From positions 4,588,001 through 4,652,000 of the forward strand of contig NC_089439.1 of the NCBI RefSeq assembly GCF_026210795.1: a stretch of DNA of 64,000 nt. The letters are read 5' to 3'. Position 1 is the first letter of the stretch; each line of letters opens with the position of its first letter. Shown here piece by piece: positions 43,428 to 64,000 of this stretch. The stretch comes from Rhizophagus irregularis (Eukaryota; Glomeromycota; Glomeromycetes; Glomerales; Glomeraceae). Below the pieces are notes generated by a model. That model was not told the origin of the DNA and ran no database searches. It saw nothing but the letters and a program-made list of their open reading frames with translations. Both the position numbers and the translations under genes were made by a program.

Positions 43428-44853
43428 CTATTTCATATTCCTTTGAATTTCTTTGATTTGGGAAGATTTGGAAAGATCGATAAAACTCATCATACGACTA
43501 GAATAAATTGCTCCAGGATGAAGTCTTGTTTCTGAAAAAGATTCTTGAGGAATAATTATATCTACATCTGCATTATCTGCATCAATAAATTCCTTATCTA
43601 TTTTTATATCTTCATTACTAATAAAATTTGTTTTTTTCAAAAACAATTTCTTAGATGGTTTTTCGTAATCATCATGGAACTGCCAATTTCTAATTATTTT
43701 AAGTATTTCTTTTGATGTAGATCTTTTATCTGGATTTGCATCAAGACATTGGGTTACCAAATCAATATAACATTTTGGCGTTCCTTTAGCTACTTTTGGT
43801 CTCAACCCATTACATATTTCTAATGCTAGCTTTTCATCATGTGGTATATTTCCATAAAGTGGTTTTCCGGTTGACACCTCTACCATAATAATACCAAAAC
43901 TATAAATATCACTTGCGAAAGTGTATGGTTTTCCATTTAATATTTCAGGTGCCATATAAGGAAGAACTTCACATACAGATGTAGAATTAGAGAAACTTGA
44001 ATTATCAGATAAATGTTGTGCAAGTCCTAAATCGGTAATTTTTGTATCAATCAAATCGTCATAATAAAATTGAAGTATATTCCCACTATGAATATTTTTA
44101 TGAATATAATTTCTATCGTGAATAAATTTGAGATTAGCTATAATATTAATTAAGATTTCTAATTTATCGGTCCATTTTAAGTTACAATGATTTTTTTTAA
44201 GATAATCTCTTAGATTTCCATGAGTTGCATATTCTAAAACCATCATAAATTCTTTTGTATCTGGATCTTTTGTTATACCATAAAGTTGCGTAATATGAAA
44301 ATTGGTATAATTACATTCATTATGTATTCTTATCTAAATAAAAAAAAAATTCGCTCATTATAAATATTTTTTACAAATTTAAATTATTTTGAAAATAATA
44401 AAGTTACCTACTGACCTCATTGATGAAAGCTTTCATATCTGAATTTTTAAGTTTTTTAAGCGCAACGCTAATAGGACCAATACGAGCCATTTCTTTATCA
44501 TATTTTGGCGCACCTTCTCTCCATGTAGCTGAGTAAATTATAGAAAACTCACCTTCCCCAATAGGTTTAATATTAACAAACTTATCAAACGGTATCCATT
44601 CTAAATTATCATAATAATGTAATGTTTGTTTTTGACTTTTATGGATAAATTCATCTATTGCAGTATTTCCACTTGTTTTTCCTTCTCTTAAAAATCGACC
44701 AGGATCACATTTCTTACACCACGCATATCCAGTATTTGCCTCCTTACAATCAGAACATATGCCAAAGTTTTCTATTTGTTCTCTTAAATCTTTCGAAAAG
44801 ATAGCTTTAAATTTATCTTTGATATTAAGGCTGTTACCACTCATTTTACTCAC
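43428..44853 (-). CDS. protein kinase-like protein, catalytic Asp replaced (probable pseudokinase)
   Basis: Exon 1 is 44853-44416 and exon 2 44333-43428, with an 82-bp phase-0 intron at the same position as in the kinase at 7065-8499; the product is 447 residues. Residues 33-49 carry CSDC and CKKC around 'GYAWCKKCDPGRF'. The glycine loop is 'GEGEFSIIYSA' (third Gly is Glu), the VAIK-like motif is 'VALKKLKN', and the hinge is 'MMVLEYATHGNL'. The catalytic loop reads 'HKNIHSGN': the HRD Asp is Asn at about 226. DLG and 'APEIL' are kept. The frame is otherwise intact, so a non-catalytic scaffold or regulator is possible. The tail after about 360 is divergent. Confidence 0.92.
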
Positions 44854-45273: not shown

Positions 45274-45277
45274 ACGG

Positions 45278-46526
45278 TGAGATCCCCCTATTCCCTCTGT
45301 CATCAATTTACAGAGTTGCCACATCGAACGGGCATTCCCATGGTCGAACGAACGAGTAAACGAACGAACGAACAAATAAACGAACAGCATAATTATCAAA
45401 CAACATAAACAACGAACAACATACAACAACATTCTTGGTTCACGAAATAAATAGCGTTAGTAATATAAAACGTCGAATGAAATAAAATAAAATTTAACTT
45501 CTCTAAATTTTCCCCAAATTATATCCACTTTTACCTTTAATTTTAAACTTCGATAGCTCTCGCTACGAATTATTACTTTCCAAAAGTGTATATTTAATTC
45601 ACCTTAAAATTTCCATTTATTCAATTAAAATTAATTAAGCAAACATTAATTAAAGTTTAGGGCGAACCTATTACCTTTAATTAACATTAAACTTCACTAA
45701 CAAATAATTAAAAAATAAAACTTATATTTTTATTGAGTTCTGTGGATGAGAACTGTGGAATTACTTTGAATTCCGTTCTCTATATATACAATTTTTATGC
45801 TACTTTCTATTCTATCTATATACTATCTTTCATGTTCTTTACATATTATCTTTGAACTATCTTTCTAATATACTATCTATATTTTAAATACGCTATCTTT
45901 TAATATGCTATCTTTATATATATGTTATCTTTTTATATATGTTCTTTTTAATATATTATCTTTTATGTTCCATCTTTTTGCTATCTTTTTATATTATCTC
46001 TTATAATATCTTTGTATAATCTTTTTATATTATCTTTTATAATATCTTTGTATAATCTTTTTATATTATCTTTTATAATATCTTATGTTCTTTAATCTTT
46101 CTGACATTATTTTATATGTTCTTTCAATCCGCTTTATGCGTTTTGCTTGTAATCTATCTTTTGTGGCTTATAATTATTCTTTCTAATCGTTCTTATTGTT
46201 AAAGATTGCTAAGCCCCAATTGATCGACTCTATTTATCCTATTGGTTCTTTGTCAATCATTTGATAAATATTACATTATGTAGATCATTACTCTTCCTAA
46301 ATGTTTATCAACATTATAGATATCGCTTAGTTTATATATTACTAAAATATTGAGTTCATAAAAATTATGGGATTCCCATTACTCCTCCTAAATGTTTATC
46401 CTTTTCGGCTAATTATTTATCCATCTACGCCAATTCACAATCAATTTGTTCGTTCTTAATATTTGGAAATTACATTTGGTGGTTGAATTTTATCATCTTT
46501 TTATGCTTGATATTCGGCCGTTTACA
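45278..46526 (-). repeat. LTR, element 1 (3' LTR)
   Basis: Starts TGAGATCCCCC, ends GGCCGTTTACA, 1249 bp. Contains (AACG)n-like repeats near its left end and repeated TATCTTTTTATATTATC units. The 60-aa open frame at its start is shared by both LTRs and is not supported as a gene. Confidence 0.95.
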
Positions 46527-46542
46527 TTATCCCCCTCTTCGC
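46527..46542 (-). other. polypurine tract, element 1
   Basis: On the minus strand GCGAAGAGGGGGATAA abuts the 3' LTR, as expected for plus-strand DNA priming. The same tract abuts the LTRs at 56765-56780 and 62575-62590. Confidence 0.8.
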
Positions 46543-46678
46543 TATTTGTGACCTCACAAATAACTTTAAAAGAATCGAACTCGGGTCTCGTTCATAATAA
46601 TTCTAATTGAATCGAACTCGGGTCTTATCGAATACCTCTTTTCCTTTAATTACTATTCTTGGTGTAAATCCCCCTCGA

Positions 46679-48793
46679 TCATAAAATTTCTTTAACCATT
46701 CTCCATTTTTCCACCTCTTTAAATACTTTTCTCCAACTACTATTGTCATTTTTAACTTTTACTCGACTGTATCTTTTGGTATATTTGTATACGCTCTGAT
46801 TTTCTTCAAACATTTTAACCATGTCCAAATATTCATCCTTTTTTAATGTTGGATATGATGATTTTTCCGTTTTCTTTGTTTCTCTCCCAATGTAATTTTC
46901 CCAACATACATTGCCATCTTTTTCTAAAAATATCACTATTGATTTATCTATTGTTTCTTTCAATCTAAATATTTCTTTTTCCATCTCATGATTTCCATGT
47001 GGAGTAATTAACCCTCTGTCAAAACTTTTCGTCTTTTGGTAATAATATTCACAATATGGTGATTTGTCTAAAATTATTATATCTGTATCTTCATCATATT
47101 CTAACATTCTTCTATTTATTTGTTCCACTACTTCTTTTCTAAATTTCCATTCTGTATCCATCTTTGATTCATAAAATTCATCTTTATCTTTTCTTCTTCT
47201 CTTATAAGTGTTGAATCTTACTTTTAATCCTTGCTTTTCCCATTCTTCAATTAAATTTTGTACTATACTTGTCTTTCCTAATCCGTCTACTCCGTCGATT
47301 ATTACTATTTCTGGTTGATCCTCTACTAACTTTAATAACCTACTTAATGCGTCAGCGTTCGTATTTTCTTTTCCTGATCTATGTATTACTTCAAAATTAT
47401 ATTGCTGTAATTCCATTACCCATCTTGCTCTTTTTCCCTTCGGTATCTTTGCATTCATTAATCCTTTTAATGCACTGTGATCTGTTATTACTTTAAATTT
47501 TCTATCGATCAAATATTTATGAAAATGTTGAACTCCCCAAACTATTCCTAAACATTCCAATTCTGTTATTGGATAATTCTCTTCTGCTGGTAATAAACTT
47601 CTACTTGCATATGCTATTACTACTTCTTTTCCTTTTTCATCTTTTTGACTTAATACTGCACCTAATCCTTTTCCTGATGCATCTGTTATTAATAAAAATT
47701 CTTTCTTCCAATCTGGATGTCGCAATATTGGATATTGTATTAACTTTTCTTTCAATTTTTCAAACGCTTCTTGTTGTTCTCTTCCCCAAATGAAAGGTAT
47801 TCCCTTCTTTCTCAAATCACTTATTGGTCTTGCTATCTTTGAAAAATTCTTCACAAATTTTCTGTAATATGAACAAAGTCCTAAAAATGATCTTACTTCT
47901 TTCACTGTTGTTGGTGCCTTCATTTCTTTTATCTTTTCTATCTTTTTATCGTCTGGCCTTAATCCATCATTTCCTACTATATGTCCTAAAAATTCTATGT
48001 TTCTTTCCAAAAATCTGCATTTCTTTAATTTTATTATTAAATTATTCTCCTGTAACTTCTTCAATACTTTTTCCACATGTTCCATATGGTCTTTCAAATT
48101 TTCTGAATATATCATAATATCATCGATATATACTACTACAAAATCATTTATGTATTCTTCTAATATTTCATCCATTAATCTTTGAAATGTTGCTGGTGCG
48201 TTCGTTAAACCAAACGGCATTACATTATATTCAAACAACCCTTTCGAACATACAAATGCTGTTTTTTCTTTGTCTTCTTCTTTCATTTCTACCTGATTAA
48301 ATCCTGCCGCTAAATCTATACTTGAAAACCATTTTGCTTTTCTGTATTTGTCTAATAATTCATCCATTCTTGGTAAAGGAAAACTATCCATTATAGTTAT
48401 CTTATTTAACTTTCTGTAATCAATGCAAAATCTATATTTTCCTGTTTTCTTTCCTGCTAATGTAACAGGTGAACTCCATGGACTTTTTGATTTCCTTATC
48501 CTTCCCTGTCTTAACAATTTGTCTACTTCTTCGCTTATAAATTTTGCCTTTTCATCTGTTTCTTTATATCTTCTTTGCTTTATTGGTTCTACCCCATCTT
48601 TTATTTTTATCTCATGTTGCGCTGCTTTTGTTCTTCCTTCTATTTCCTCATCGTATTCCAAAATATCTTGATATTCTAATAGTAATTTTACCATATTTTC
48701 CCAAATTGGTTCTTCTACTTCCCCTATACTTAGTTTTTGCATAAATTTTTCACTTGGTTCGAGCATCTTTTCCGTCTCTCTCTTCAGAGCCAA
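46679..48793 (-). CDS. Gypsy pol: reverse transcriptase, RNase H and nucleotide-kinase-like domain
   Basis: The frame opens after an in-frame TAG (48800-48802) that separates it from protease; about 704 codons, no own ATG at the boundary. RT: 'KYRFCIDYRKLNKIT', 'FSSIDLAAGFNQV', 'YIDD' box. RNase H: 'ITDASGKGLGAVLSQ' to 'NTNADALSRL'. From about residue 497 a further domain follows in frame: 'IDGVDGLGKTS' (Walker A, GxxGxGKT), 'IIILDKSPYCEYYYQ' (like the DR(S/Y) motif of thymidylate and deoxynucleoside kinases, with Lys for Arg), then 'SIVIFLE' and a LID-like 'GRETKKTEKSSYPTL'. It ends at 46679 shortly after a deletion junction. No integrase. This order (RH then kinase-like) is unusual for Ty3/Gypsy pol. 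Confidence 0.9.
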   Translation of the reverse strand: MALKRETEKMLEPSEKFMQKLSIGEVEEPIWENMVKLLLEYQDILEYDEEIEGRTKAAQHEIKIKDGVEPIKQRRYKETDEKAKFISEEVDKLLRQGRIRKSKSPWSSPVTLAGKKTGKYRFCIDYRKLNKITIMDSFPLPRMDELLDKYRKAKWFSSIDLAAGFNQVEMKEEDKEKTAFVCSKGLFEYNVMPFGLTNAPATFQRLMDEILEEYINDFVVVYIDDIMIYSENLKDHMEHVEKVLKKLQENNLIIKLKKCRFLERNIEFLGHIVGNDGLRPDDKKIEKIKEMKAPTTVKEVRSFLGLCSYYRKFVKNFSKIARPISDLRKKGIPFIWGREQQEAFEKLKEKLIQYPILRHPDWKKEFLLITDASGKGLGAVLSQKDEKGKEVVIAYASRSLLPAEENYPITELECLGIVWGVQHFHKYLIDRKFKVITDHSALKGLMNAKIPKGKRARWVMELQQYNFEVIHRSGKENTNADALSRLLKLVEDQPEIVIIDGVDGLGKTSIVQNLIEEWEKQGLKVRFNTYKRRRKDKDEFYESKMDTEWKFRKEVVEQINRRMLEYDEDTDIIILDKSPYCEYYYQKTKSFDRGLITPHGNHEMEKEIFRLKETIDKSIVIFLEKDGNVCWENYIGRETKKTEKSSYPTLKKDEYLDMVKMFEENQSVYKYTKRYSRVKVKNDNSSWRKVFKEVEKWRMVKEIL

Positions 48794-48799
48794 GACTTT

Positions 48800-49303
48800 C
48801 TATTTAAAATTCTGGTGCATTTTGAATACCTCTCCTTCATCGTTGCTTTCATATTCTTCGTCATCCTCGCTCTCTTCACTTTCATATATTGCTTCCCTTT
48901 CATATCCTACTGGAATCGTTATTATTTCTCCTCGTTTTTCTATTCTTAAGGTATGATCTTCAAAATTTATTTTTGCATTATACAGCTTCCATATATCATT
49001 TCCCAAAATTAGATCCTCTTCTTCTGAATCGATTACTTCAACTTCTTTTAGTATTTCTAATTCATCTTTGTATCTCAAAGTTATATTTGCCTTTCCTAAC
49101 GCTGCTATCTTTTGCCCATTTGCTATTGTACATCTAAATTTACTTTTTCCAAATATAGGTATATTCAATCTCCTCCTTAATTTGTCTGTTATCACACTTA
49201 CTGCTGCTCCAGTATCTATTATTACATTCACTAATTGATCTTCAACTTCTAATTCTGTTCTCATTGCTGTAGTTCTTTTCTCTTCATTTTTCATAGTTCC
49301 CAC
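48800..49303 (-). CDS. Gypsy retropepsin-type aspartic protease
   Basis: Contains 'NVIIDTGAAVSVITDKL' with the catalytic D-T-G and flanking hydrophobics, 'LILGNDIWKLYNA' as the second conserved block and an acidic tail. 167 codons from the ATG at 49303. It shares the frame of gag (stop TGA at 49313-49315) and of RT (stop TAG at 48800-48802), so gag-PR-pol is one frame broken by two stops. Processes the polyprotein in virus-like particles. Confidence 0.88.
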   Translation of the reverse strand: MGTMKNEEKRTTAMRTELEVEDQLVNVIIDTGAAVSVITDKLRRRLNIPIFGKSKFRCTIANGQKIAALGKANITLRYKDELEILKEVEVIDSEEEDLILGNDIWKLYNAKINFEDHTLRIEKRGEIITIPVGYEREAIYESEESEDDEEYESNDEGEVFKMHQNFK

Positions 49304-49312
49304 CGAGTGTAG

Positions 49313-52300
49313 TCAATTTTTCTCGTTTATGCTTCTTGGTCTATATGTTCCTTCTCTCAATTGTTTATGATACTTAGTATTCTCATTTATCATTTGTCCA
49401 ATTGTTATATTCGCTCTACAATTTTTCACGTCTTCCACAATATCGTAAGGTGGTATTCCATCAGTTAATCTCGGTCCATATTCTCTGGGCTTTCCTGTCC
49501 CTGATGGCTTTGTTCTAACCCAATTTCCAAATTCATCTTGCCGCATTCCAGGGTAAAATGCTTTGCCTTCTTTTGTGAACATTGGTTTATAAAATCTTCC
49601 ATCTTTTGTCATGGGTCGCCGACCATAATTATAATCTTCTGGTCCTATTGGATTATCCCAATTTTGACTATCTTTGTATACATTATTTTGTTCTATCCTT
49701 TCGGGCGTATATCTTGGTGTTGTTGTTCCACTTGGTATTTCTCTATCATCCATTCTATTTCCCGCTTCTCTTAATTCTTCTTGTAAATTTCCTTCTTCAC
49801 CATTATTTTTATATCCCACTACTGGATTCGTCCTTCTTGTTTGTCTTCTTGTCTTTACTGCGTTATCTTTTGCGTATAATTCATTATGATAATTTAATTC
49901 CCTATCTTCATAATCATCGTAATAACCTTGTGTATAATACATTTCACCGTATTGTGGTTCCTCATCTTCATATCCATTATAATCATATTCTTCTTGATCA
50001 TAATACTCGTCCATCATATTCACTCCTACATTCCTTCTTTTCTCTGGACACTCTCCTGAATAATGACCAGCTCTACCACATGTATAGCATGTCGGTACTC
50101 TTTTTTGGAATGACTGATTTCTTTGAATTGGTTGATTTCTTTGCATTGATTGGTTTCTTTGCATTAGTTGATTTCTTTGTGGCAATCGCCTATAGCTCTG
50201 ACTCGCTAAATTTCTTAATCTTTCATTCTCATCTTCTAACATCTTAATTTGTAACTTCGCAAAACTGTCTGCTAATTCATCTACACCTACCCCTTTATTA
50301 TTCCTTACATTCCCTTGAACAATAGGTTCTTGTCTTCTTTGTTCATCATTAATTCCTTTTGGTTGTACTTTATCCGTTAATGCTTCTAAACCTCTTTCTA
50401 CGTTTTTTGCTATCTGAAATGTTGCGTTTAGATCTGCTGGATTGCCCATTACTACATCTTTAGTAAAGTCCGGTTTTAATCCTCTAATAAAAATTCTCTT
50501 TTGCTGATTTGCTGCTACTGCTGCATCACCTCCCGCTCTCTTTAACATATACTTAAATCTCGTAAGGTATTGAGTTACATTCTCGTCTCCCTGTCTAATC
50601 TTTTCTAATTGTTCTAGCCATCTATCTTTAATTTCATCACTTGCATACTTTCCAATTATTCTTACTCTTAATCTTAAATTATGATCTCCATTAACATTCC
50701 AATCGACGATATTTACTCCTTCAGTCTTTAACCAATCTGCTGCTCCTCCCATTAATTTCGCTTTTGCTAATCTAAATCTCTGTGCATCATCATTCCCTAA
50801 ACCATTTGCTGTAAATGTCTCCTCAAATTTATCTGCCCATTCTTCTGGATCTTCTCCACTGGTACCATAAAATGCTGGTATTTCTACAATAGCTCCTCTA
50901 TTTGCGTTTAAATTTCCTATCGCATTGGTATTCGCTTGAACTTCTCCTTGTAATCCTGTCAATGTTATCGGTGGTACTGCTAAATTGTTCCAATCTGCCC
51001 CAATATCATGATTATACATAGTATTCATTAATGCTCTTAGATCTGCTCTGAGTTCATCTCTTGATGCTGCCATTGTTATCTTTGGTTTTATTGGTGGTAC
51101 TGGTGTTATTGGTATTATAGGTACTTCCTTTGATTTTTTATTTTTCTCTTTACTTTTTGGTTTTTTACTTGAGCCAATTTCGGGTCCTTTTATATCCTCT
51201 TCCATTTCATCTTCATCATCTGTTGGATTTTCTTTTTCAATATCTTTTTCACATTCTATGCAGGTTTCTTTTCCAATTTCAAATTCTTTCTTTAATCTTT
51301 CAATTTCACATCTTCCGCATTCTTTTGTGTTTTCAACTCTCCATTGTAATATTTGTTCATCTAATTTTTCATCTTCAAGATTCCATATTGTTAAATATTT
51401 CTTCATAAATTCATATGTTGTTATTATCTTTGCGGTTACTCCAAATTTTCTTATTCTTTCAATTTCCGTTATTTCTACATCATATCCCATTCTTTTCAAA
51501 TCCATTCTAATTATTTCTTCGAATACCTTTGTTGTTTCTGTTTCTTCAACATTATTAGATTCAATAGATTCGTCAGATTCCTCATCTGACATTTCTTCAT
51601 TTTTACTAATTGGTAAATTTTCTTCCTCCCCATCGTCTGTTTCTGTTATAGTATAACTTCTTGGTGTGTCATCACTATCTGTTTCATCTATATTTAATTG
51701 CTCAAACCCCCTAATCTTATCATAAACTCTTTCAATTACTACTTTCGAGATTCCTCCACCACGACCTTTTACGTACATTGTATTCAACATTGATCTAATC
51801 TTTTGTTTGAACGCTTCTATTTTTTCCGTTGACTCATCTTCTTTTAATTCCGCTTCCTCATACAATATATCTTTGTATTTTCTAATAACGCTATCTTTCC
51901 ATTCTATAAACTCTGATATAGCCACTTTATGCCATTCATAAAATTCCCTAAATCTTATATTCACATCCCAATCTTCCAAAATATAACCATATCTTATTAA
52001 TTCTTCATTCCCTATTAATCTGTCCATTGTTTCGTCTTCTTTATCGTTTTCTATACAATCTCTCGCAACCACTATTATTATTATCTTTAGTCCTTTCTCT
52101 CTCAATATTGGTTGTTTCAAGTATCTTATCGATTCAACTATTATATCTAATGCATCTCTAGTTTTTCCTTTCGTATAATTATTTCTTTCTTCACTATCTA
52201 TACTTAATAAATTTATTAACGCCCTTATAGTTTCTGCATTATAATCCCTTATCGTATATTCAAATTTTTGTAATATTCTCCAAAATTTCTTAAAAACTTC

Positions 52301-52441
52301 TGGTGTATCTCTTATTGGATAACATATTTCACATGTTATATTTTCTCCTCTCAATTCGTCTATATCTACATTTCCGATATTTTCGTCATGTCTTAATTTG
52401 TGGTTCTCGTAATCAACCCTCCAAGTTTCATACCATTCCAT
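49313..52441 (-). CDS. Gypsy gag, 1042 aa with long acidic N-terminal extension
   Basis: Start ATG at 52441. Residues 1-450 form an acidic, Cys-containing extension ('CEICYPI' near 37; 'CGRCEIERLKK' near 372) of unknown role, longer than usual for gag. The capsid-like retrotransposon gag domain spans about 520-700 ('AFYGTSGEDPEEWADKFEET', 'KDRWLEQLEKIRQGDENVTQ'). A zinc knuckle 'CYTCGRAGHYSGEC' (CX2CX4HX4C) is at about 784, after Gln/Asn-rich repeats of RNQ(L/S/P). Acidic Tyr-rich sequence and a long tail follow. The stop context is TGA CTA. Confidence 0.9.
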   Translation of the reverse strand: MEWYETWRVDYENHKLRHDENIGNVDIDELRGENITCEICYPIRDTPEVFKKFWRILQKFEYTIRDYNAETIRALINLLSIDSEERNNYTKGKTRDALDIIVESIRYLKQPILREKGLKIIIIVVARDCIENDKEDETMDRLIGNEELIRYGYILEDWDVNIRFREFYEWHKVAISEFIEWKDSVIRKYKDILYEEAELKEDESTEKIEAFKQKIRSMLNTMYVKGRGGGISKVVIERVYDKIRGFEQLNIDETDSDDTPRSYTITETDDGEEENLPISKNEEMSDEESDESIESNNVEETETTKVFEEIIRMDLKRMGYDVEITEIERIRKFGVTAKIITTYEFMKKYLTIWNLEDEKLDEQILQWRVENTKECGRCEIERLKKEFEIGKETCIECEKDIEKENPTDDEDEMEEDIKGPEIGSSKKPKSKEKNKKSKEVPIIPITPVPPIKPKITMAASRDELRADLRALMNTMYNHDIGADWNNLAVPPITLTGLQGEVQANTNAIGNLNANRGAIVEIPAFYGTSGEDPEEWADKFEETFTANGLGNDDAQRFRLAKAKLMGGAADWLKTEGVNIVDWNVNGDHNLRLRVRIIGKYASDEIKDRWLEQLEKIRQGDENVTQYLTRFKYMLKRAGGDAAVAANQQKRIFIRGLKPDFTKDVVMGNPADLNATFQIAKNVERGLEALTDKVQPKGINDEQRRQEPIVQGNVRNNKGVGVDELADSFAKLQIKMLEDENERLRNLASQSYRRLPQRNQLMQRNQSMQRNQPIQRNQSFQKRVPTCYTCGRAGHYSGECPEKRRNVGVNMMDEYYDQEEYDYNGYEDEEPQYGEMYYTQGYYDDYEDRELNYHNELYAKDNAVKTRRQTRRTNPVVGYKNNGEEGNLQEELREAGNRMDDREIPSGTTTPRYTPERIEQNNVYKDSQNWDNPIGPEDYNYGRRPMTKDGRFYKPMFTKEGKAFYPGMRQDEFGNWVRTKPSGTGKPREYGPRLTDGIPPYDIVEDVKNCRANITIGQMINENTKYHKQLREGTYRPRSINEKN

Positions 52442-54011
52442 CGTTGTAATCGTTCATCCAGAATCTTAACTAAAATCTCACCTCCTTTTATATATATATT
52501 TCACTCTCATCGTTTCTATTTTCAATCTTCTATGTTTCTATTTTCAATCTTCTAAACATTCTTTTATCTTTAGATAGATTGCTTCTTTCAATCTTTAAAT
52601 TCCATCTTTCAGTTTTATATATTTACTACTCCATATTCTATTATTAATTTTTGCTGCGCCTCAAAATTTCAAAAATTATTCTAAGTCCACGATCTCCTCA
52701 GACTGTGGAGGTTTTTACTGCGCCACAAAGTTTATCTTTTGTCACCGATATCCATAATTTCACATATCACATTCTAAAATTTATCTCCTATCACCGTGAT
52801 TCATAATTTCACGTGTCATATTCTAAAATTTATCTTCTATCACCGTGATTCATAATTTCACATATCATATATCACAAACTCCAAAATTTTCATAACTTTA
52901 AAAGTTTGTGAATCTTCAATCTTCCTCATCGTCCACATAAATCTTTCTTACTATATATTCTACATTATATAAATTAATCTATAATACACAAAATGTCATT
53001 CTTTTCCAATAGATATCCTTCTTTTCAAATAAATGTTCTTCTTTCAAATAAATGTCCTTCTTTTCGGATTTTACTCTATTATTAAATACTGCACGTAATG
53101 TTCATTATACGGCTCGTTAATGTGTAAATATCCTCCTATTTTATCTTCTTTTAACGGAACATTGTAATGAGAGCGTGAACTAGGACACTACACCAGGAAC
53201 CTTCATCTGAAATGTAGCCTAGGACCTGTAACAATACAACGTATCCATTTTTCCTTCTTCGTTGGCCGACTTGTCCCTTAACGGGTGAATCTAACCTTCC
53301 AAAATCCAGTTTTAAAAGTCATCAGCTATCCATAAAACTCATCTAAACCAACTTATCTTTCCTCAAATTGGTGGACCTATACTGGGCTTATCTCTATCTT
53401 TTTCCCATTGGGTAAAAGCATGATAGTTTACAGGTTTGTCCCATTTTATCCATTCAATGTTTCTTGATAGTAGGTGTCTTTACAACTTTCATTCCCCGTC
53501 CCCAAAGCAATTTGCGCATTATTGAGCTGGGTATCCAGATTTGACGTAACCCATACGTTATAATCTTTAATGTCGAAGAATAAAAATTTTCCAATCTCGA
53601 GCATTTATCCAAAATTCAAACTCAGAGGTAACCCATACCACACAGATGAACCCCAGATAATGCATTGGTGTTCTCCCATTATTAATCTTTATTCCAAAAT
53701 TCATCTTTCATTTCCACATCTCCTTATGAAATTTCTCAGGTACTTTATTCCCGAAAGAAATATTCTTGTGCTTTCTATCGATTAAGTGATTACTTGCACA
53801 ACTTCAAACTTCAATCTTTCACCTTTTCAAGTTTTTAACTCAATTAAATCCTTATTGATTTATTGGTCCCTCCTGAACTCGTCAAAACCTGAAATCTAAA
53901 AATAAATTCTAAAATAAAATATTGATCAATAATACCTATCAGTGACTTACTAACGAAATTAAATTTTCATATTCATTATAATAATAATCATGTGATGATG
54001 ATCATTTCCTT
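52442..54011 (-). other. element 1 leader region
   Basis: The 1.6-kb untranslated leader between primer-binding site and gag. It contains repeated CACCGTGATTCATAATTTCAC-like units (52740-52880) and AAATAAATGTCCTTCTTTC-like units. The short open frames within (for example 53570-53785 plus) are not supported. The homologous leader of element 2 is at 59838-61320. Confidence 0.7.
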
Positions 54012-54029
54012 TCTTGCGAGCATGCACCA
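54012..54029 (-). other. primer-binding site, element 1
   Basis: Two bases inside the 5' LTR the minus strand reads TGGTGCATGCTCGC, complementary to a tRNA 3' end finishing GCATGCACCA. The tRNA species was not identified. Element 2 has the matching site at 61320-61339. Confidence 0.65.
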
Positions 54030-54031
54030 TA

Positions 54032-55280
54032 TGAGATCCCCCTATTCCCTCTGTCATCAATTTACAGAGTTGCCACATCGAACGGGCATTCCCATGGTCG
54101 AACGAACGAGTAAACGAACGAACGAACAAATAAACGAACAGCATAATTATCAAACAACATAAACAACGAACAACATACAACAACATTCTTGGTTCACGAA
54201 ATAAATAGCGTTAGTAATATAAAACGTCGAATGAAATAAAATAAAATTTAACTTCTCTAAATTTTCCCCAAATTATATCCACTTTTACCTTTAATTTTAA
54301 ACTTCGATAGCTCTCGCTACGAATTATTACTTTCCAAAAGTGTATATTTAATTCACCTTAAAATTTCCATTTATTCAATTAAAATTAATTAAGCAAACAT
54401 TAATTAAAGTTTAGGGCGAACCTATTACCTTTAATTAACATTAAACTTCACTAACAAATAATTAAAAAATAAAACTTATATTTTTATTGAGTTCTGTGGA
54501 TGAGAACTGTGGAATTACTTTGAATTCCGTTCTCTATATATACAATTTTTATGCTACTTTCTATTCTATCTATATACTATCTTTCATGTTCTTTACATAT
54601 TATCTTTGAACTATCTTTCTAATATACTATCTATATTTTAAATACGCTATCTTTTAATATGCTATCTTTATATATATGTTATCTTTTTATATATGTTCTT
54701 TTTAATATATTATCTTTTATGTTCCATCTTTTTGCTATCTTTTTATATTATCTCTTATAATATCTTTGTATAATCTTTTTATATTATCTTTTATAATATC
54801 TTTGTATAATCTTTTTATATTATCTTTTATAATATCTTATGTTCTTTAATCTTTCTGACATTATTTTATATGTTCTTTCAATCCGCTTTATGCGTTTTGC
54901 TTGTAATCTATCTTTTGTGGCTTATAATTATTCTTTCTAATCGTTCTTATTGTTAAAGATTGCTAAGCCCCAATTGATCGACTCTATTTATCCTATTGGT
55001 TCTTTGTCAATCATTTGATAAATATTACATTATGTAGATCATTACTCTTCCTAAATGTTTATCAACATTATAGATATCGCTTAGTTTATATATTACTAAA
55101 ATATTGAGTTCATAAAAATTATGGGATTCCCATTACTCCTCCTAAATGTTTATCCTTTTCGGCTAATTATTTATCCATCTACGCCAATTCACAATCAATT
55201 TGTTCGTTCTTAATATTTGGAAATTACATTTGGTGGTTGAATTTTATCATCTTTTTATGCTTGATATTCGGCCGTTTACA
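54032..55280 (-). repeat. LTR, element 1 (5' LTR)
   Basis: 1249 bp, same ends and length as 45278-46526; no difference noticed on reading the two side by side. Confidence 0.95.
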
Positions 55281-55284
55281 ACGG

Positions 55285-55531: not shown

Positions 55532-56764
55532 TGAGATCCCCCAATTCCCCCTGTCATCAATTTACAAGGTTGCCACATCGAACGGGCATTCTCATGGTCG
55601 AACGAACGAATGAGCGAACAAACAAACGAACGAACGAGCAATCAAACGAACAAACACGTGATCAAAACATAATTAACGAACAACAACATCAGCGAACAAT
55701 ATACAACAACATTCTTGGTTCACAAAATAAATAGCGTTAGTAATATAAAACGTTGAGCGATATAAAATAAAATGTACTTCTCTTTCCTCAAATTATATCC
55801 ACTTTCGATTTCAAACTGCGATAGCTCTCGCTACGAATTATTATCTTCCAAAGGTATATATTTAATTCATCTTAAATTTTCATTAATTAAAATTAATTAA
55901 TCAAACATTAATTAAAGTTTAGGGCGAACCTATTACCTTTAATTAATATTAAACTTCATTAATAATTAAAAAATAAAACTTATATTTTATTGAGTTCTGT
56001 GGATGCGAACTGTGGAATTACTTTGAATTCCGTTCTCTATATATACAATTTTTATGCTACTTTCTATTCTATCTATATACTATCTTTTATGTTCTTTACA
56101 TATTATCTTTGAACTATCTTTCTAATATACTATCTATATTTTAAATACGCTATCTTTTAATATGCTATCTTATATATTATTTTATATGTTATCTCTTCTA
56201 TTATTCAAATATTACATCGTAAAGAAATAATTTATAACCCATCTTTTATGGCTGTGCTATCTTTTCTTTAAAATAATCTTTCAAATATTATGTCGTAAAG
56301 ATATAATTCATCTTTTGTGGCTGTGTTATCTTTTTATATATGTTCTTTTTAATATGTTGTCTTTTATATTCCATCTTTTTACTATCTTTTCATATTATCT
56401 TTTATATTATCTTGTGTTCTTTAATCTTTCCGACATTATTTTATATGTTCTTTTAATCCACTTTATGTGTTTTGCTTATAATCTATCTTTTGTGGCTTAT
56501 AATTATTCTTTCTTATCGTTCTTGTTGTTAAAGATCGTCAAGCCGCAATTGATCGACTCTATTTATCCTATTGGTTCTTTGTCAATCATTTGATAAATAT
56601 TACATCATGTAGATCATTACTCTTCTTAAATGTTTATCCTCTTCGGCTAATTATTTATCCATCCACGCCCATTCATGATTAATTTGTTCGTTCTTAATAT
56701 TTGATAATTACATTTGGCGGTTGAATTTTATCTTCTTTTCGTGCTTGATATTCGGCCGTTTACA
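55532..56764 (-). repeat. LTR, element 2 left
   Basis: Starts TGAGATCCCCCAATTCC, ends GGCCGTTTACA. It differs from element 1 LTRs by indels, including an extra ATTACATCGTAAAG-containing segment. Confidence 0.95.
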
Positions 56765-56840
56765 TTATCCCCCTCTTCGCTATTTGTGACCTCACAAATA
56801 ACTTTAAAAGAATCGAACTCGGGTCTCGTTCATAATAATT

Positions 56841-57140
56841 CTAATTGAATCGAACTCGGGTCTTATCGAATACCTCTTTTCCTTTAATTATTATTTTTGG
56901 TGTAAATCCCCCTCGATCATAAAATTTCTTTAACCATTCTCCATTCTGTGGTGTTTTCAATATTCTTCCATCTAATTCTTTGAGTTTATATGCTCCGTTT
57001 CCAAATTCTTCGTGAATTAAATATGGTCCTTTCCATTTGCTCTGCAATTTTCCAGACCATTGTTTCTCTCTCCATGCTTCATATAATAATACTTTTTCTC
57101 CTATTTCAAATTTAGGTTTTCTAATTCCCCTTTTGTTGTG
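56841..57140 (-). CDS. integrase C-terminal part, separated by a stop
   Basis: The frame continues from integrase after a TAA at 57141-57143: 'KPKFEIGEKVLLYEAWREK' then 'SKWKGPYLIHEEFGNGAYKL' and 'TPQNGEWLKKFY', the usual C-terminal GPY/F-like tail of Gypsy integrases. The TAA stands where CAA would keep the frame open, so this is probably one broken protein. Confidence 0.75.
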   Translation of the reverse strand, partial: HNKRGIRKPKFEIGEKVLLYEAWREKQWSGKLQSKWKGPYLIHEEFGNGAYKLKELDGRILKTPQNGEWLKKFYDRGGFTPKIIIKGKEVFDKTRVRFN

Positions 57141-58067
57141 TTATTGTTTTTGTTTCTCTTGAGCTTCTTCCACATTTTCTTTTATTTTTCTTCTTATTAC
57201 CGGTAGCTCCTCGATTAATACTTTTACTCTATCAGCTAATGTTACCTTATTTTCATCTTTATCTAATGGTAGTCTCGCTCTCCTTCCGTATGTTGCGTAA
57301 AAAGGTTTAATTCTTGTTGATGATTGCTTCTTTGTCCTATATGCAAATAATACAGATGGTATATGTTTATCCCAATTTTCTTCTCCTAATTTGGCCAATC
57401 CTTCACATAAAGTTTTATTGAATCTTTCGACCAAACCATTTGTTTGTGGCCTATATGGTGTACTTAATCTATGATTTATTCCACATCTTTCTACTAATTC
57501 TTCCATCATTCTATTGTTAAAGTGAGTCCCTCTATCGCTAATTATTTTCTTTGGACATCTATGTCTACAAATTATGTCTCGCCAAATAAATTCTACTACT
57601 TCTTTTGCTGTAGCTTCTTTTAGTGGTGCGGCCTCGGGCCATTTTGTAAAATAATCCATCGCTACTACAATATACTTATTTCCCTTTTCTGTCTCTTTTA
57701 ATGGTCCAACTATATCTATTCCAATCATCTCGAACGGTTCATTTATCTTTATTGGCGTCAGCTCATTCTTTCCTCTTGGTTTTCCTCTCATTTGACAATT
57801 CCAACACGTTCTTACATATTCTTCTACATCTTCTTTCATATTTTTCCACCAATAATTTTCTTTTATTCTATCTAATGTCGCTTCTATCCCAAAATGTCCT
57901 GATAATTCATTATCATGCATCATGTATATCAATCCCTCGTATTCATAATCCCTGATTACTCTAAATCTGTTTTGTCCTTTTATTCTATATAAAATTCCTT
58001 CTTTCAATTCATATTTATTCTCTTTTTCGATATTGTCAATTATTCTCTTATAATTATTTTCCTCCAT
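57141..58067 (-). CDS. Gypsy integrase (element 2)
   Basis: 308 codons. The N-terminal HHCC zinc domain shows 'HDNELSGHFG' and 'CWNCQ'. The catalytic core shows 'GIDIVGPL', 'ISDRGTHFNN' and 'NGLVERFNKTL' (D, D, E). It is in the same frame as the upstream kinase ORF but separated by TAA at 58128-58130 and a second TAA shortly after. It inserts element cDNA. Missing from element 1. Confidence 0.92.
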   Translation of the reverse strand: MEENNYKRIIDNIEKENKYELKEGILYRIKGQNRFRVIRDYEYEGLIYMMHDNELSGHFGIEATLDRIKENYWWKNMKEDVEEYVRTCWNCQMRGKPRGKNELTPIKINEPFEMIGIDIVGPLKETEKGNKYIVVAMDYFTKWPEAAPLKEATAKEVVEFIWRDIICRHRCPKKIISDRGTHFNNRMMEELVERCGINHRLSTPYRPQTNGLVERFNKTLCEGLAKLGEENWDKHIPSVLFAYRTKKQSSTRIKPFYATYGRRARLPLDKDENKVTLADRVKVLIEELPVIRRKIKENVEEAQEKQKQ

Positions 58068-58127
58068 AATATTTCTTTAATTGATTCTACTTCTGAGTTT
58101 GTTATTTTCGTTATGTGTTCTATATTT

Positions 58128-59837
58128 TTAGTTCTGTGCTCTTCTCCATTTTTCCACCTCTTTAAATACTTTTCTCCAACTACTATTGTCATTTTTAACT
58201 TTTACTCGACTGTATCTTTTGGTATCTTTATACACACTTTGATTTTCTTCAAACATTTTAACCATGTCCAAATATTCATCCTTCTTTAATGTTGGATATG
58301 ATGATTTTTCCGTTTTCTTTGTTTCTCTTCCAATGTAATTTTTCCAACATACGTCACCATCTTTCTCTAAAAATATCACTATTGATTTATCTATCGTTTC
58401 TTTCAGTCTGAATATTTCTTTTTCCATCTCATGATTTCCATGTGGAGTAATTAATCCTCTGTCAAAACTTTTCGTCTTTTGATAATAATATTCACAATAT
58501 GGTGATTTGTCTAAAATTATTATATCTGTATCTTCATCATATTCTAACATTCTTCTATTTATTTGTTCCACTACTTCTTTTCTAAATTTCCATTCTGTAT
58601 CCATCTTTGATTCGTGAAATTCATCTTTATCTTTTCTTCTTCTTTTATAAGTATTGAATCTTACTTTTAATCCTTGTTTTTCCCATTCTTTAATTAAATT
58701 TTGTACTATACTTGTTTTTCCCAATCCATCTACCCCGTCAATTATTACTATTTCTGGTTGATCCTCTACTATCTTTAATAATCTACTTAATGCGTCGGCG
58801 TTCGTATTTTCTTTTCCCGACCTATGTATTACTTCAAAATTATATTGCTGTAATTCCATTACCCATCTTATTTCGCATCTTTCGCACCAAGTTGTACTCT
58901 CATTTATTAATTGTCCATATGTTATATTCGCTCTACAATTTTTCACGTCTCCCTCAATGTCATAAGGTCGTATTTCATCAGTTAATCTTGGTCCATACTC
59001 TCTGGGTTTTGTTGGTCCTCCTGCTTCTCTCCATTTTCTTAGTCCTTCTGTTGGGTCATAATAATCTTGTCTTTTATTACTCCATTTCATTTTTCGTGGT
59101 CCTATCGGTTTATCCCAATTCTGTTCAGTTCGTTCAGGTATATAATTTGGTGTCGTTGTACCACTTGGTATTTCTCTATCATCCATTCTACTTCCTGCTC
59201 CTCTTAATTCTTCTTGTAAATTTCCTTCTTCATTATTATTTTTATATCCCACTGTTGGATTCGTCCTTCTTGTTTGTCTTCTTGTTTTTACTGCGTTATC
59301 TTTTGCATACAATTCACTATGATAATTTAATTCTCCATCTTCATAATCATCGTAATATCCTTGTGTATAATATACTCCATCGTATTGTGGTTCCTCATAT
59401 CCATTTTCATTATAATCACACTTTTCTTGGTCATCATATTCACCTGTCATATTCACTCTTGCATTCCTTTTTGCTTTTTGATTTTTACTCGAGCCAATTT
59501 CGGGTCCTTTTATATCCTCTTCCACTTCATCTTCAAGATTCCATATTGTTAAATATTTCCTCATAATTTCATATGTTGTTATTATCTTTGCAGTTACTCC
59601 AAATTTTCTTGTTCTTTCAATTTCCGTTATTTCTACATCATATCCCATACTAGTCAATCTTAACAATTCTTCTTCAGTTGTTATCGTTCCAATATCTCCA
59701 AAAATCTTCTGTAATCTTTTTACCCGATTATCAATTTCATCGATATCCTCTTCTTCACAATCTTTGCATACGGTTCCTCCTAATCTAAACATATCATTCA
59801 TCCATCTTATCATTTCTATTTTCAATCTTCTAAGCAT
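58128..59837 (-). CDS. chimeric gag-fragment / RNase H tail / nucleotide-kinase-like ORF
   Basis: One uninterrupted 569-codon frame made of in-frame deletion products: a leader-proximal start with 'CKDC', a piece of the gag extension ('MGYDVEITEIER'), a short bridge ('EEDIKGPEIGSSK'), the post-knuckle acidic part of gag ('YYTQGYYDDYED'), the gag tail ('CRANITYGQLI'), then the last RNase H residues ('NTNADALSRL') and the full kinase-like domain with 'IDGVDGLGKTS' and 'IIILDKSPYCEYYYQ'. At least three deletions each preserve the frame. Protein identity to the element 1 kinase domain is high, with mostly silent nucleotide changes. Confidence 0.85.
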   Translation of the reverse strand: MLRRLKIEMIRWMNDMFRLGGTVCKDCEEEDIDEIDNRVKRLQKIFGDIGTITTEEELLRLTSMGYDVEITEIERTRKFGVTAKIITTYEIMRKYLTIWNLEDEVEEDIKGPEIGSSKNQKAKRNARVNMTGEYDDQEKCDYNENGYEEPQYDGVYYTQGYYDDYEDGELNYHSELYAKDNAVKTRRQTRRTNPTVGYKNNNEEGNLQEELRGAGSRMDDREIPSGTTTPNYIPERTEQNWDKPIGPRKMKWSNKRQDYYDPTEGLRKWREAGGPTKPREYGPRLTDEIRPYDIEGDVKNCRANITYGQLINESTTWCERCEIRWVMELQQYNFEVIHRSGKENTNADALSRLLKIVEDQPEIVIIDGVDGLGKTSIVQNLIKEWEKQGLKVRFNTYKRRRKDKDEFHESKMDTEWKFRKEVVEQINRRMLEYDEDTDIIILDKSPYCEYYYQKTKSFDRGLITPHGNHEMEKEIFRLKETIDKSIVIFLEKDGDVCWKNYIGRETKKTEKSSYPTLKKDEYLDMVKMFEENQSVYKDTKRYSRVKVKNDNSSWRKVFKEVEKWRRAQN

Positions 59838-61341
59838 TCTTTTATCTTTAAATAGATCGCTTCTTCCAATCTTTCGATTCCATCTTTCGGTTCTATATAT
59901 TTACTATGCCATATTTTACTATTAATTTTTACTGCGCCTTAAAATTTCAAAAATTTTTCTAAGTCCACAATCTCCTCAGGCTGCGGAGGTTTTTACTGTG
60001 CCATCAAATTTATCTTTTATCACCGATCTCCATAATTTCACATGTCACATCTTTTCGTCACTGTGATTCATAATTTCACTTATCACATCTTTTCGTCACA
60101 TCTTTTTGTCACCAAGATCCATAATTTCACATATCACAAACTTTATGAAAATTTTGGAGTTTTAAGGTTTGCGAATTTCCAATCTTTCTTATCGTCCACA
60201 TAAATCCTTCTTACTATATATTCTATATTATATAAATTAATCTATAACACACAAAATGTCGTTCTTTTCAGATAAATGTCTTTCTTTTCAAATAAATGTT
60301 CTTTTTCAAATAAATATTCTTTTTCAAATAAATGTTCTTCTTTTAAATAAATGTCCTTCTTTTCGGATTTTACTCTATTATTAAATACTGCACGTAATGT
60401 TCATTATACGGCTCGTTAATGTGTAAATATCCTTCTATTTTTTCTTCTTTTAACGGAACATTGTAATGAAAGCGTGAACTAGGACACTACACCAGGAACC
60501 CTCATCTGAAATGTAGCCTAGGACCTGTAACAATACAACATATCCGTCTTTTCCTCCTTCGTTGGCTGACTTGTCTCTTAACGGGTGAATCTAACCTTCC
60601 AAAATCCAGTTTCAAAAGTCATCAGCTATCCATAAAACTCATCTAAACCAACTTTCTTAAATTGGTGGACCTATACTGAGCTTATCTTTATCTTTTACCC
60701 GTTGGAGATACCTCACATTGAAATAAAAGCACGACAGTTTTCAGGTTTGTCCCATTTTATCCATCCAATGTTTCTTGATAGTAGGTGTCTTTACAATTTT
60801 CATTCCCCGTCCCCAAAGCAATTCGTACGTTATTGAGCTGGGTATCCAGATTTGACGTAACCCATACGTTATAATCTTTAATATCGAAGAATAAGAATTT
60901 TCCAATCTCGAGCATTTATCCAAAATCCAAACTCAGAGGTAACCCATACCACACAGATGAACCCCGGACAATACATTGGTGTTCTCCCATTATTAATCTT
61001 TATTCCAAAATTTATCTTTAACTTCCACATCTCCTTATGAAATTTCTCAGGTACTTTATTCCCGAAAGAAACATTCTTGTGCTTTCTATCGATTAAGTGA
61101 TTACTTGCACAACTTCAAACTCCAATCTTTCACCTTTTCAAGTTTTTAACTCGATTAAATCCTTATTGATTTATTGGTTCCTTTTGAACTCGTTAAAACC
61201 TGAAATCTAAAAATAAATTCTAAAATAAAATATTGATTAATAATACCTATCAGTGACTTACTAACGAAATTAAATTTTCATATTCATTATAATAATAATC
61301 ATGTGATGATGATCATTTCCTTTCTCGGAGCATGCACCATA
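59838..61341 (-). other. element 2 leader and primer-binding site
   Basis: Homologous to 52442-54031. The PBS lies at about 61320-61339 (tRNA end GGAGCATGCACCA on the plus strand). The short frame at 60741-60923 is not supported. Confidence 0.65.
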
Positions 61342-62574
61342 TGAGATCCCCCAATTCCCCCTGTCATCAATTTACAAGGTTGCCACATCGAACGGGCATT
61401 CTCATGGTCGAACGAACGAATGAGCGAACAAACAAACGAACGAACGAGCAATCAAACGAACAAACACGTGATCAAAACATAATTAACGAACAACAACATC
61501 AGCGAACAATATACAACAACATTCTTGGTTCACAAAATAAATAGCGTTAGTAATATAAAACGTTGAGCGATATAAAATAAAATGTACTTCTCTTTCCTCA
61601 AATTATATCCACTTTCGATTTCAAACTGCGATAGCTCTCGCTACGAATTATTATCTTCCAAAGGTATATATTTAATTCATCTTAAATTTTCATTAATTAA
61701 AATTAATTAATCAAACATTAATTAAAGTTTAGGGCGAACCTATTACCTTTAATTAATATTAAACTTCATTAATAATTAAAAAATAAAACTTATATTTTAT
61801 TGAGTTCTGTGGATGCGAACTGTGGAATTACTTTGAATTCCGTTCTCTATATATACAATTTTTATGCTACTTTCTATTCTATCTATATACTATCTTTTAT
61901 GTTCTTTACATATTATCTTTGAACTATCTTTCTAATATACTATCTATATTTTAAATACGCTATCTTTTAATATGCTATCTTATATATTATTTTATATGTT
62001 ATCTCTTCTATTATTCAAATATTACATCGTAAAGAAATAATTTATAACCCATCTTTTATGGCTGTGCTATCTTTTCTTTAAAATAATCTTTCAAATATTA
62101 TGTCGTAAAGATATAATTCATCTTTTGTGGCTGTGTTATCTTTTTATATATGTTCTTTTTAATATGTTGTCTTTTATATTCCATCTTTTTACTATCTTTT
62201 CATATTATCTTTTATATTATCTTGTGTTCTTTAATCTTTCCGACATTATTTTATGTGTTCTTTTAATCCACTTTATGTGTTTTGCTTATAATCTATCTTT
62301 TGTGGCTTATAATTATTCTTTCTTATCGTTCTTGTTGTTAAAGATCGTCAAGCCGCAATTGATCGACTCTATTTATCCTATTGGTTCTTTGTCAATCATT
62401 TGATAAATATTACATCATGTAGATCATTACTCTTCTTAAATGTTTATCCTCTTCGGCTAATTATTTATCCATCCACGCCCATTCATGATTAATTTGTTCG
62501 TTCTTAATATTTGATAATTACATTTGGCGGTTGAATTTTATCTTCTTTTCGTGCTTGATATTCGGCCGTTTACA
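61342..62574 (-). repeat. LTR shared by element 2 and the next tandem unit
   Basis: 1233 bp. On its left side lies an element 2 PBS, on its right side a PPT (62575-62590), so it is a 5' LTR for one unit and a 3' LTR for the next. Confidence 0.95.
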
Positions 62575-62650
62575 TTATCCCCCTCTTCGCTATTTGTGAC
62601 CTCACAAATAACTTTAAAAGAATCGAACTCGGGTCTCGTTCATAATAATT

Positions 62651-62950
62651 CTAATTGAATCGAACTCGGGTCTTATCGAATACCTCTTTTCCTTTAATTA
62701 TTATTTTTGGTGTAAATCCCCCTCGATCATAAAATTTCTTTAACCATTCTCCATTCTGTGGTGTTTTCAATATTCTTCCATCTAATTCTTTGAGTTTATA
62801 TGCTCCGTTTCCAAATTCTTCGTGAATTAAATATGGTCCTTTCCATTTGCTCTGCAATTTTCCAGACCATTGTTTCTCTCTCCATGCTTCATATAATAAT
62901 ACTTTTTCTCCTATTTCAAATTTAGGTTTTCTAATTCCCCTTTTGTTGTG
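62651..62950 (-). CDS. integrase C-terminal part, second tandem unit
   Basis: Same as 56841-57140, again cut off from integrase by TAA (62951-62953). Confidence 0.75.
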   Translation of the reverse strand, partial: HNKRGIRKPKFEIGEKVLLYEAWREKQWSGKLQSKWKGPYLIHEEFGNGAYKLKELDGRILKTPQNGEWLKKFYDRGGFTPKIIIKGKEVFDKTRVRFN

Positions 62951-63877
62951 TTATTGTTTTTGTTTCTCTTGAGCTTCTTCCACATTTTCTTTTATTTTTC
63001 TTCTTATTACCGGTAGCTCCTCGATTAATACTTTTACTCTATCAGCTAATGTTACCTTATTTTCATCTTTATCTAATGGTAGTCTCGCTCTCCTTCCGTA
63101 TGTTGCGTAAAAAGGTTTAATTCTTGTTGATGATTGCTTCTTTGTCCTATATGCAAATAATACAGATGGTATATGTTTATCCCAATTTTCTTCTCCTAAT
63201 TTGGCCAATCCTTCACATAAAGTTTTATTGAATCTTTCGACCAAACCATTTGTTTGTGGCCTATATGGTGTACTTAATCTATGATTTATTCCACATCTTT
63301 CTACTAATTCTTCCATCATTCTATTGTTAAAGTGAGTCCCTCTATCGCTAATTATTTTCTTTGGACATCTATGTCTACAAATTATGTCTCGCCAAATAAA
63401 TTCTACTACTTCTTTTGCTGTAGCTTCTTTTAGTGGTGCGGCCTCGGGCCATTTTGTAAAATAATCCATCGCTACTACAATATACTTATTTCCCTTTTCT
63501 GTCTCTTTTAATGGTCCAACTATATCTATTCCAATCATCTCGAACGGTTCATTTATCTTTATTGGCGTCAGCTCATTCTTTCCTCTTGGTTTTCCTCTCA
63601 TTTGACAATTCCAACACGTTCTTACATATTCTTCTACATCTTCTTTCATATTTTTCCACCAATAATTTTCTTTTATTCTATCTAATGTCGCTTCTATCCC
63701 AAAATGTCCTGATAATTCATTATCATGCATCATGTATATCAATCCCTCGTATTCATAATCCCTGATTACTCTAAATCTGTTTTGTCCTTTTATTCTATAT
63801 AAAATTCCTTCTTTCAATTCATATTTATTCTCTTTTTCGATATTGTCAATTATTCTCTTATAATTATTTTCCTCCAT
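62951..63877 (-). CDS. Gypsy integrase, second tandem unit
   Basis: Identical translation to 57141-58067, with the same HHCC and D,D,E motifs. Confidence 0.92.
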   Translation of the reverse strand: MEENNYKRIIDNIEKENKYELKEGILYRIKGQNRFRVIRDYEYEGLIYMMHDNELSGHFGIEATLDRIKENYWWKNMKEDVEEYVRTCWNCQMRGKPRGKNELTPIKINEPFEMIGIDIVGPLKETEKGNKYIVVAMDYFTKWPEAAPLKEATAKEVVEFIWRDIICRHRCPKKIISDRGTHFNNRMMEELVERCGINHRLSTPYRPQTNGLVERFNKTLCEGLAKLGEENWDKHIPSVLFAYRTKKQSSTRIKPFYATYGRRARLPLDKDENKVTLADRVKVLIEELPVIRRKIKENVEEAQEKQKQ

Positions 63878-63937
63878 AATATTTCTTTAATTGATTCTAC
63901 TTCTGAGTTTGTTATTTTCGTTATGTGTTCTATATTT

Positions 63938-64000
63938 TTAGTTCTGTGCTCTTCTCCATTTTTCCACCTCTTTAAATACTTTTCTCCAACTACTATTGTC
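63938..64000 (-). CDS. C-terminal end of kinase-like ORF, second tandem unit (partial)
   Basis: Stop at 63938; the visible codons match the end of 58128-59837 ('WRKVFKEVEKWRRAQN'). Continues beyond the window. Confidence 0.8.
   Translation of the reverse strand, partial: DNSSWRKVFKEVEKWRRAQN

Follow-up and report, generated by a model that had tools for sequence, protein, structure and literature searches.

Retroelements are thought to draw deoxynucleoside triphosphates (dNTPs) from the host. The nucleotide-metabolism domain that we found described in retroelement pol is dUTPase, which the accessible text of one study places at several pol positions in fungal Gypsy elements, varying with lineage, and for which the same text cites the idea that the enzyme permits virus replication in non-dividing cells (PMC2864245). 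According to the available portion of another paper, dUTPase can sit between reverse transcriptase (RT) and integrase (IN) in vertebrate retroviruses (PMC5408684), and a third, also available in part, reports that phytoplasma potential mobile units carry and multiply tmk-a genes for thymidylate kinase (TMPK) (PMC3750655). Here we describe Ty3/Gypsy elements in a 64,000-nucleotide stretch of the Rhizophagus irregularis genome (NC_089439.1, positions 4,588,001 to 4,652,000; hereafter the window) in which a TMPK-like kinase domain lies between RNase H (RH) and IN.

Like the dUTPase elements covered by these partial sources (retroviruses; Gypsy elements of Postia, Phanerochaete and Tuber; the bdelloid elements Juno, Vesta and TelKA), the R. 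irregularis elements have a nucleotide-metabolism domain inside pol, and it occupies the RT-IN slot used by vertebrate-retroviral dUTPase. dUTPase, however, is a hydrolase of another fold, whereas the domain here is a P-loop kinase. If the role proposed below is right, the two enzymes would have thymidylate supply as a common target; we infer by analogy that the kinase is the same kind of solution, one step further on the thymidylate pathway. The phytoplasma units resemble these elements in being mobile and carrying a TMPK gene but, as far as the available text goes, are bacterial DNA elements with a separate gene and no described reverse transcription of the unit. In agreement with the first-pass annotation of this DNA, which knew of no Gypsy lineage with such a domain, full-text literature searches, with supplements and most subscription papers outside their reach, found no retrotransposon described with a thymidylate, nucleotide or deoxynucleoside kinase, and the accessible parts of two R. 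irregularis transposon papers do not mention one (PMC11075540, PMC8647823). The kinase would therefore appear to be a new enzyme class among retroelements that carry a nucleotide-metabolism domain.

The 706-residue stop-to-stop pol frame of the first window element contains RT, then RH ending in NADALSRL, and then the kinase, reading PEIVIIDGVDGLGKTSIV...LDKSPYCEYYYQ...GRETKKTEKSSYPTL. A nucleotide-kinase fold at this place had been proposed by the first-pass annotation and was borne out by profile and structure comparisons. First, the PHROG_761 'thymidylate kinase' model, which also matches E. coli Tmk (E 7.3e-38), matched kinase residues 1-202 (E 1.2e-13), and in each of three profile libraries TMPK ranked first for this domain. 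Second, the predicted structure has a TMPK fold by Foldseek comparison with the PDB, and the 50 PDB matches listed are phosphotransfer kinases. Third, the P-loop has an acidic residue before its second glycine (GVDGLGKT), with D8 in 107/110 and K12 in 111/112 sequences, and the Asp of the TMPK DR motif and the Tyr-Gln pair seven residues on, judged against the E. coli Tmk pattern, are kept (Asp and Tyr each 112/112, Gln 111/114). A chance P-loop is ruled out by the PHROG_761 match together with the fold comparison. The element kinase thus shares with bacterial and phage thymidylate kinases (PHROG_761, PF02223) the predicted fold, the acidic P-loop, the D-x-(x7)-YQ block and a basic LID side; it differs in having Lys where the DR motif has Arg and a conserved FNTFKRRR of its own, in being fused to RT-RH or IN, and, for the window sequence, in scoring under the Pfam and NCBIfam cut-offs.

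Several observations weigh against identification as a TMPK, or as one specific for dTMP. The Pfam match behind NADALSRL is weak (PF02223, 20.2 bits versus a cut-off of 27), and the NCBIfam dTMP kinase scores of the window domain are 20.4 and 18.7 versus cut-offs of 193 and 83.25. Pfam places general AAA/STAND models above TMPK in family members P0090, P0081 and P0091 and has no TMPK row for P0123. When a family profile was compared with PDB sequences, FtsY came first (6.4e-6, over the P-loop and N-terminal part) and TMPK scored 0.066, and the hhalign match to TMPKs spans only the first 89 aligned columns. The DR-motif Arg is replaced by Lys in 111/112 sequences, so that the motif itself is absent. 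TMPKs read thymine through a Phe/Arg pair, and this pair has no clear counterpart in the element kinase; because of these two departures the substrate may be other than dTMP. K36-R37-R38-R39, moreover, could serve another acceptor, and dCK and dGK folds nearly equal the best TMPK score and exceed those of several other TMPKs. A PDB search with the single sequence found nothing beyond shared P-loops or spurious hits (designed PPR proteins, adenylate kinase). One related copy, C16:4182955 in locus L041, exceeds the PF02223 cut-off when its frame neighbours are included (28.4), and a fragment at C6:4454486 reaches 27.7.

The fold scores raise the alternative of a deoxynucleoside kinase (dNK), which would act in deoxynucleoside salvage and not on monophosphates. 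By predicted fold TMPK and dNK are nearly tied. By sequence the domain is TMPK-like and not dNK-like: it has the acidic P-loop residue (GxDGxGK) and YQ pair of TMPKs, and in the Pfam search, whose HMMER filters discard most matches above E ~0.1, none of P0001-P0003 drew a row for the dNK family PF01712 at E up to 1. We consider a dNK unlikely; the first-pass assignment to thymidylate/deoxynucleoside kinases narrows, by sequence, to the former.

The AAA/STAND rows bear on a different alternative, in which the domain is a weakly catalytic ATP or nucleotide sensor or scaffold that times particle maturation, the start of RT or integration and makes no nucleotides. The conserved linkage to RH or IN and the Arg-to-Lys change in the DR motif would fit such a function, and the viral structure matches include a pair of phage proteins labelled 'AAA domain containing'. 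No AAA+ protein, however, was among the 50 PDB matches listed, and residues of acceptor-site type (D8, D81, Y90-Q91, R142), which ATP binding alone would not call for, equal the P-loop in invariance across sequences down to ~50% identity. A sensor or scaffold therefore seems improbable. The phosphotransfer kinases that make up the listed PDB matches and the retention of acceptor-site-type residues also make unlikely the repurposed nucleic-acid-dependent ATPase that the first-pass annotation had offered as an option. An IstB-type AAA+ ATPase was rejected, with only weak NCBIfam rows (E 0.02-0.11).

The basic stretch is nearly invariant (K36 113/115, R37 110/115, R38 109/115 and R39 111/115) and could instead hold nucleic acid in a nucleic-acid end kinase or a tRNA or primer kinase acting during reverse transcription or integration. 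Other matches point the same way: O-phosphoseryl-tRNA kinase at Foldseek rank 7 (2.6e-4) and, weakly, KTI12 under its cut-off (0.0058) and a polynucleotide-kinase PHROG row for P0091 (0.0016). The fusion of kinase to IN in subfamily D is also compatible with an end kinase. A stretch with Arg, however, occurs close to this position in TMPKs as well (in E. coli Tmk it reads TREPGG), the Pfam scan found no RNA-binding add-on, and TMPK led all three libraries; we regard an end kinase as doubtful.

The domain is widespread and its place is fixed. A search of the genome to which the window belongs (146.7 Mb in 32 contigs) returned at least 150 kinase rows among the best candidates scored, and 130 of the 150 listed span at least 195 residues. 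Of 361 RT candidates 98 were scored, with identities of 66-100%; 97 of these are followed by a kinase on the same strand, no more than 600 nt downstream, and at the single exception, C13:673416, one lies ~15 kb downstream. These many copies and RT-linked kinases exclude a fusion peculiar to the window. In 20 wider loci, hand-picked from the kinase listing so as to sample subfamilies, the order RT/RH-kinase-IN was found in all 20, several with broken frames, in accord with the ancestral order first proposed, and gag and protease (PR) matches also lie upstream in 17. Among 30 subfamily-A loci, 24 have an IN match within 1.5 kb downstream of the kinase, three of them short. By the order gag-PR-RT-RNase H-IN between long terminal repeats (LTRs), the elements are assigned to Ty3/Gypsy LTR retrotransposons; neither P0090 (593 aa) nor the window IN, whose frame stops early at 311 aa, showed a chromodomain at E 0.01, and the Pfam listings for pol, PR, gag and IN of the window include no dUTPase.

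Position is kept while the partner within the open reading frame (ORF) varies. In subfamilies B and C (9/9 loci) and in most A copies listed, RT-RH-kinase forms one frame and IN another. In subfamily D (7/7 loci) the kinase is instead read together with IN, apart from RT-RH, in a frame ~600 aa long where unbroken (5/7); the annotated D protein P0090 begins at the kinase (MGPKIIIICGVDG). An R. clarus protein, P0087, combines RH, kinase and IN in one predicted chain and, with the R. irregularis loci, places the fusion in other family members. Two points had been missed by the first-pass annotation: kinase and IN are mostly in different frames, and D has the kinase in the IN ORF. The result is a tractable case of a pol module that is fixed in its genomic slot as its ORF partner changes. 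Splicing of RT-RH to kinase-IN in D was rejected: L047 and L048 lack ~230 nt, but the missing piece is bounded by a short sequence common to both edges and has no GT...AG ends. By eye, short open frames of ~112, 51 and 81 codons lie in the kinase/IN gap of B and of C and in the RH/kinase-IN gap of D (read at L031/L033, L036/L040, and L043 and kin, respectively).

Three species account for the named relatives outside this genome (R. irregularis, R. clarus and Glomus cerebriforme); the others are metagenomic or unnamed. The nearest relatives found without retroelement domains are metagenomic proteins (P0091, P0123, P0130), which differ in having a NUDIX domain ahead of the kinase (by Pfam in P0091 and P0123); P0091 is 46% identical to the element kinase and has the DKSPY.E(Y/F)(F/Y)YQ block, P0130 aligns with P0091 and P0123, and P0135 is also among the closest TMPK-like metagenomic proteins. 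The NUDIX part has only weak matches in the R. irregularis genome (best E 0.008). Phage records gave no match to the kinase at E up to 1, none with P0123 and seven weak ones with P0091 (E 0.2-0.9); viral contigs and prokaryote genomes gave pattern matches, with no relative confirmed by tblastn at that sensitivity. The host TMPK at C13:3242213-3242981 was rejected as the source of a recent capture because its exons are eukaryotic-type; the comparison was with this gene alone, the second PF02223 place (C24:3288271) being left out.

Codon comparisons bear on whether the domain is a functionless passenger, a piece of a captured gene that the elements merely transport. Nei-Gojobori dN/dS (omega) within subfamilies was 0.065 for the kinase in A (435 pairs), 0.076 in C (10), 0.128 in D (21) and 0.246 in B (6 pairs, with few changes), compared with 0.032, 0.044, 0.036 and 0.104 for RT/RH and 0.074, 0.100, 0.089 and 0.197 for IN in the same order. 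The subfamily-A values are biased toward lower dN because the 30 A copies are the best protein matches; in the kinase listing every row before the step down to 88% has 93-100% identity. Sequences were excluded if they had stops, covered less than 90% or fell outside groups A-D (4/50 for the kinase, namely L035, L041, L042 and L050, all outside the groups; 11/50 for RT/RH; 10/44 for IN), which left four B copies for PR and none for gag. A passenger would agree with the loss of IN from element 1 and of RT from element 2 and with stops in some genomic copies. Low omega in three subfamilies, near-invariant active-site-type residues, linkage to 97 of the 98 scored RTs and the replacement of one kinase by another between lineages make a passenger highly improbable; as judged from these sequences, the kinase is kept intact under selection.

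That replacement is seen in distances and trees. Between A and B, dN is 0.052 for the kinase versus 0.225 for RT and 0.312 for IN; between B and C it is 0.253 versus 0.122 and 0.108. RT and IN trees group B with C (support 100/99), whereas the kinase tree groups B with A (100/99), and approximately unbiased tests reject the opposite grouping in each case (RT p 9.3e-5, IN p 0.0013, kinase p 0.0036), with groups named after the distances had been seen and trees built from 18, 18 and 16 chosen copies. Because the kinase conflicts with the RT and IN backbone, B took an A-type kinase or A took a B-type one. By this phylogenetic evidence the module is replaced rather than lost, and is traded between lineages.

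We give about an even chance to the explanation that a Ty3/Gypsy clade of arbuscular mycorrhizal (AM) fungi, represented in R. irregularis, R. clarus and G. cerebriforme, acquired a TMPK-like kinase between RH and IN in the distant past and kept it as an active nucleoside-monophosphate kinase that feeds cDNA synthesis. The domain, predicted fold, fixed place, conservation and lineage exchange are described above; the enzymatic activity is what we infer from them. The substrate would most likely be dTMP, perhaps also other deoxynucleoside monophosphates. Made with RT or IN, the kinase would be packaged or co-located with them and would raise dTDP and dTTP when host dNTPs are low, as in quiescent spores and hyphae, if AM fungal spores are dNTP-poor, as we assume. 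Somewhat short of even, in our estimate, is the broader proposition that the element encodes its own deoxynucleotide-synthesis enzyme, RT- or IN-linked and in or beside the particle, which would free it of host S-phase dNTPs, as a module that is traded between lineages and shifts between RT and IN ORFs while its genomic place is kept. A conserved kinase one step along the dUTPase pathway would make dNTP limitation of retrotransposons directly testable. The domain also accounts for several Rhizophagus proteins annotated as 'hypothetical' or 'thymidylate kinase-like', which seem to be pieces of transposons and not enzymes of the host.

Table 1. Features of the kinase-bearing elements in the window (window coordinates; E-values where given).
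Feature	Position	Strand	Details
Pol frame, element 1	48799-46679	-	706 aa, stop to stop; RT, then RNase H, then kinase
RT and RNase H, element 1	47330..48619	-	Pfam RVT_1 5.8e-45, RT_RNaseH 1.7e-37
TMPK-like kinase domain, element 1	46700..47308	-	P-loop GVDGLGKT, DKSPYCEYYYQ, LID-side GRETKK
Terminal codons of frame, element 1	46679..46699	-	MVKEIL and stop (seven codons); out-of-frame post-integrase tail
Aspartic protease ORF, element 1	48800..49312	-	Pfam gag-asp_proteas 3.4e-9; ends TAG
In-frame UGA, gag/protease junction, element 1	49313-49315	-	followed by CUACA; readthrough-type context
Gag ORF, element 1 (capsid, CCHC knuckle)	49313..52453	-	Pfam Retrotrans_gag 8.5e-6, zf-CCHC 7.2e-4
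3' LTR, element 1	45278..46526	-	1249 bp, identical to 5' LTR
5' LTR, element 1	54032..55280	-	1249 bp
TMPK-like kinase domain and stop codon, element 2	58128..58760	-	96% identical to element 1 kinase
Integrase ORF, element 2 (H2C2 zinc domain, rve core)	57141..58076	-	Pfam Integrase_H2C2 6.8e-22, rve 2.7e-14
Integrase, third tandem copy	62954..63886	-	sequence match
Kinase 3' end, third copy	63947..64000	-	continues beyond window (C11:4651947-4652561)

Neither window element is complete, since element 1 lacks IN and element 2 nearly all of RT, retaining only ~32 residues of the RT/RH query. No IN match was found within element 1, and the last codons of its frame match the region behind IN in element 2, a comparison that also placed the 3' edge of the kinase (~46700); because IN was deleted there, the frame ends in a post-integrase tail read in another frame, and the first-pass annotation, right about the kinase, had run it seven codons too far. 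It was likewise right that the domain recurs in element 2 ahead of IN, but the kinase frame closes with a stop there and IN has a frame of its own. Identical LTRs and a flanking 4-bp ACGG repeat (45274-45277 and 55281-55284), in an element without IN, indicate that element 1 (45278-55284) probably moved in trans and recently.

Gag, PR and the 706-residue frame of element 1 share one reading frame with single stops between them; the zf-CCHC score of its gag is slightly under the Pfam cut-off. Gag and PR are in one frame, with UGA and CUACA between them, in the window and in 15/15 loci examined, these being the 15 of the 20 wider loci with a gag frame that reaches PR (L031-L033, L036-L040 and L042-L048, without L041). 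UGA CU is a readthrough context known in fungi, according to the accessible part of PMC4207609. Because the UGA-CUACA junction is conserved and of this type, gag-pro is probably produced through programmed readthrough.

Elements 2 and 3 (55532-63110) lie in tandem with a 5810-base period, both RT-deleted and with the same 590-aa kinase-bearing frame; positions 55532-57300 and 61342-63110 are 99.9% identical over the 1769 bases compared. Elsewhere in the window, 7305-8333 and 43659-44693 appear by eye to be two copies of a protein-kinase-like gene, 81-86% identical and ~36 kb apart.
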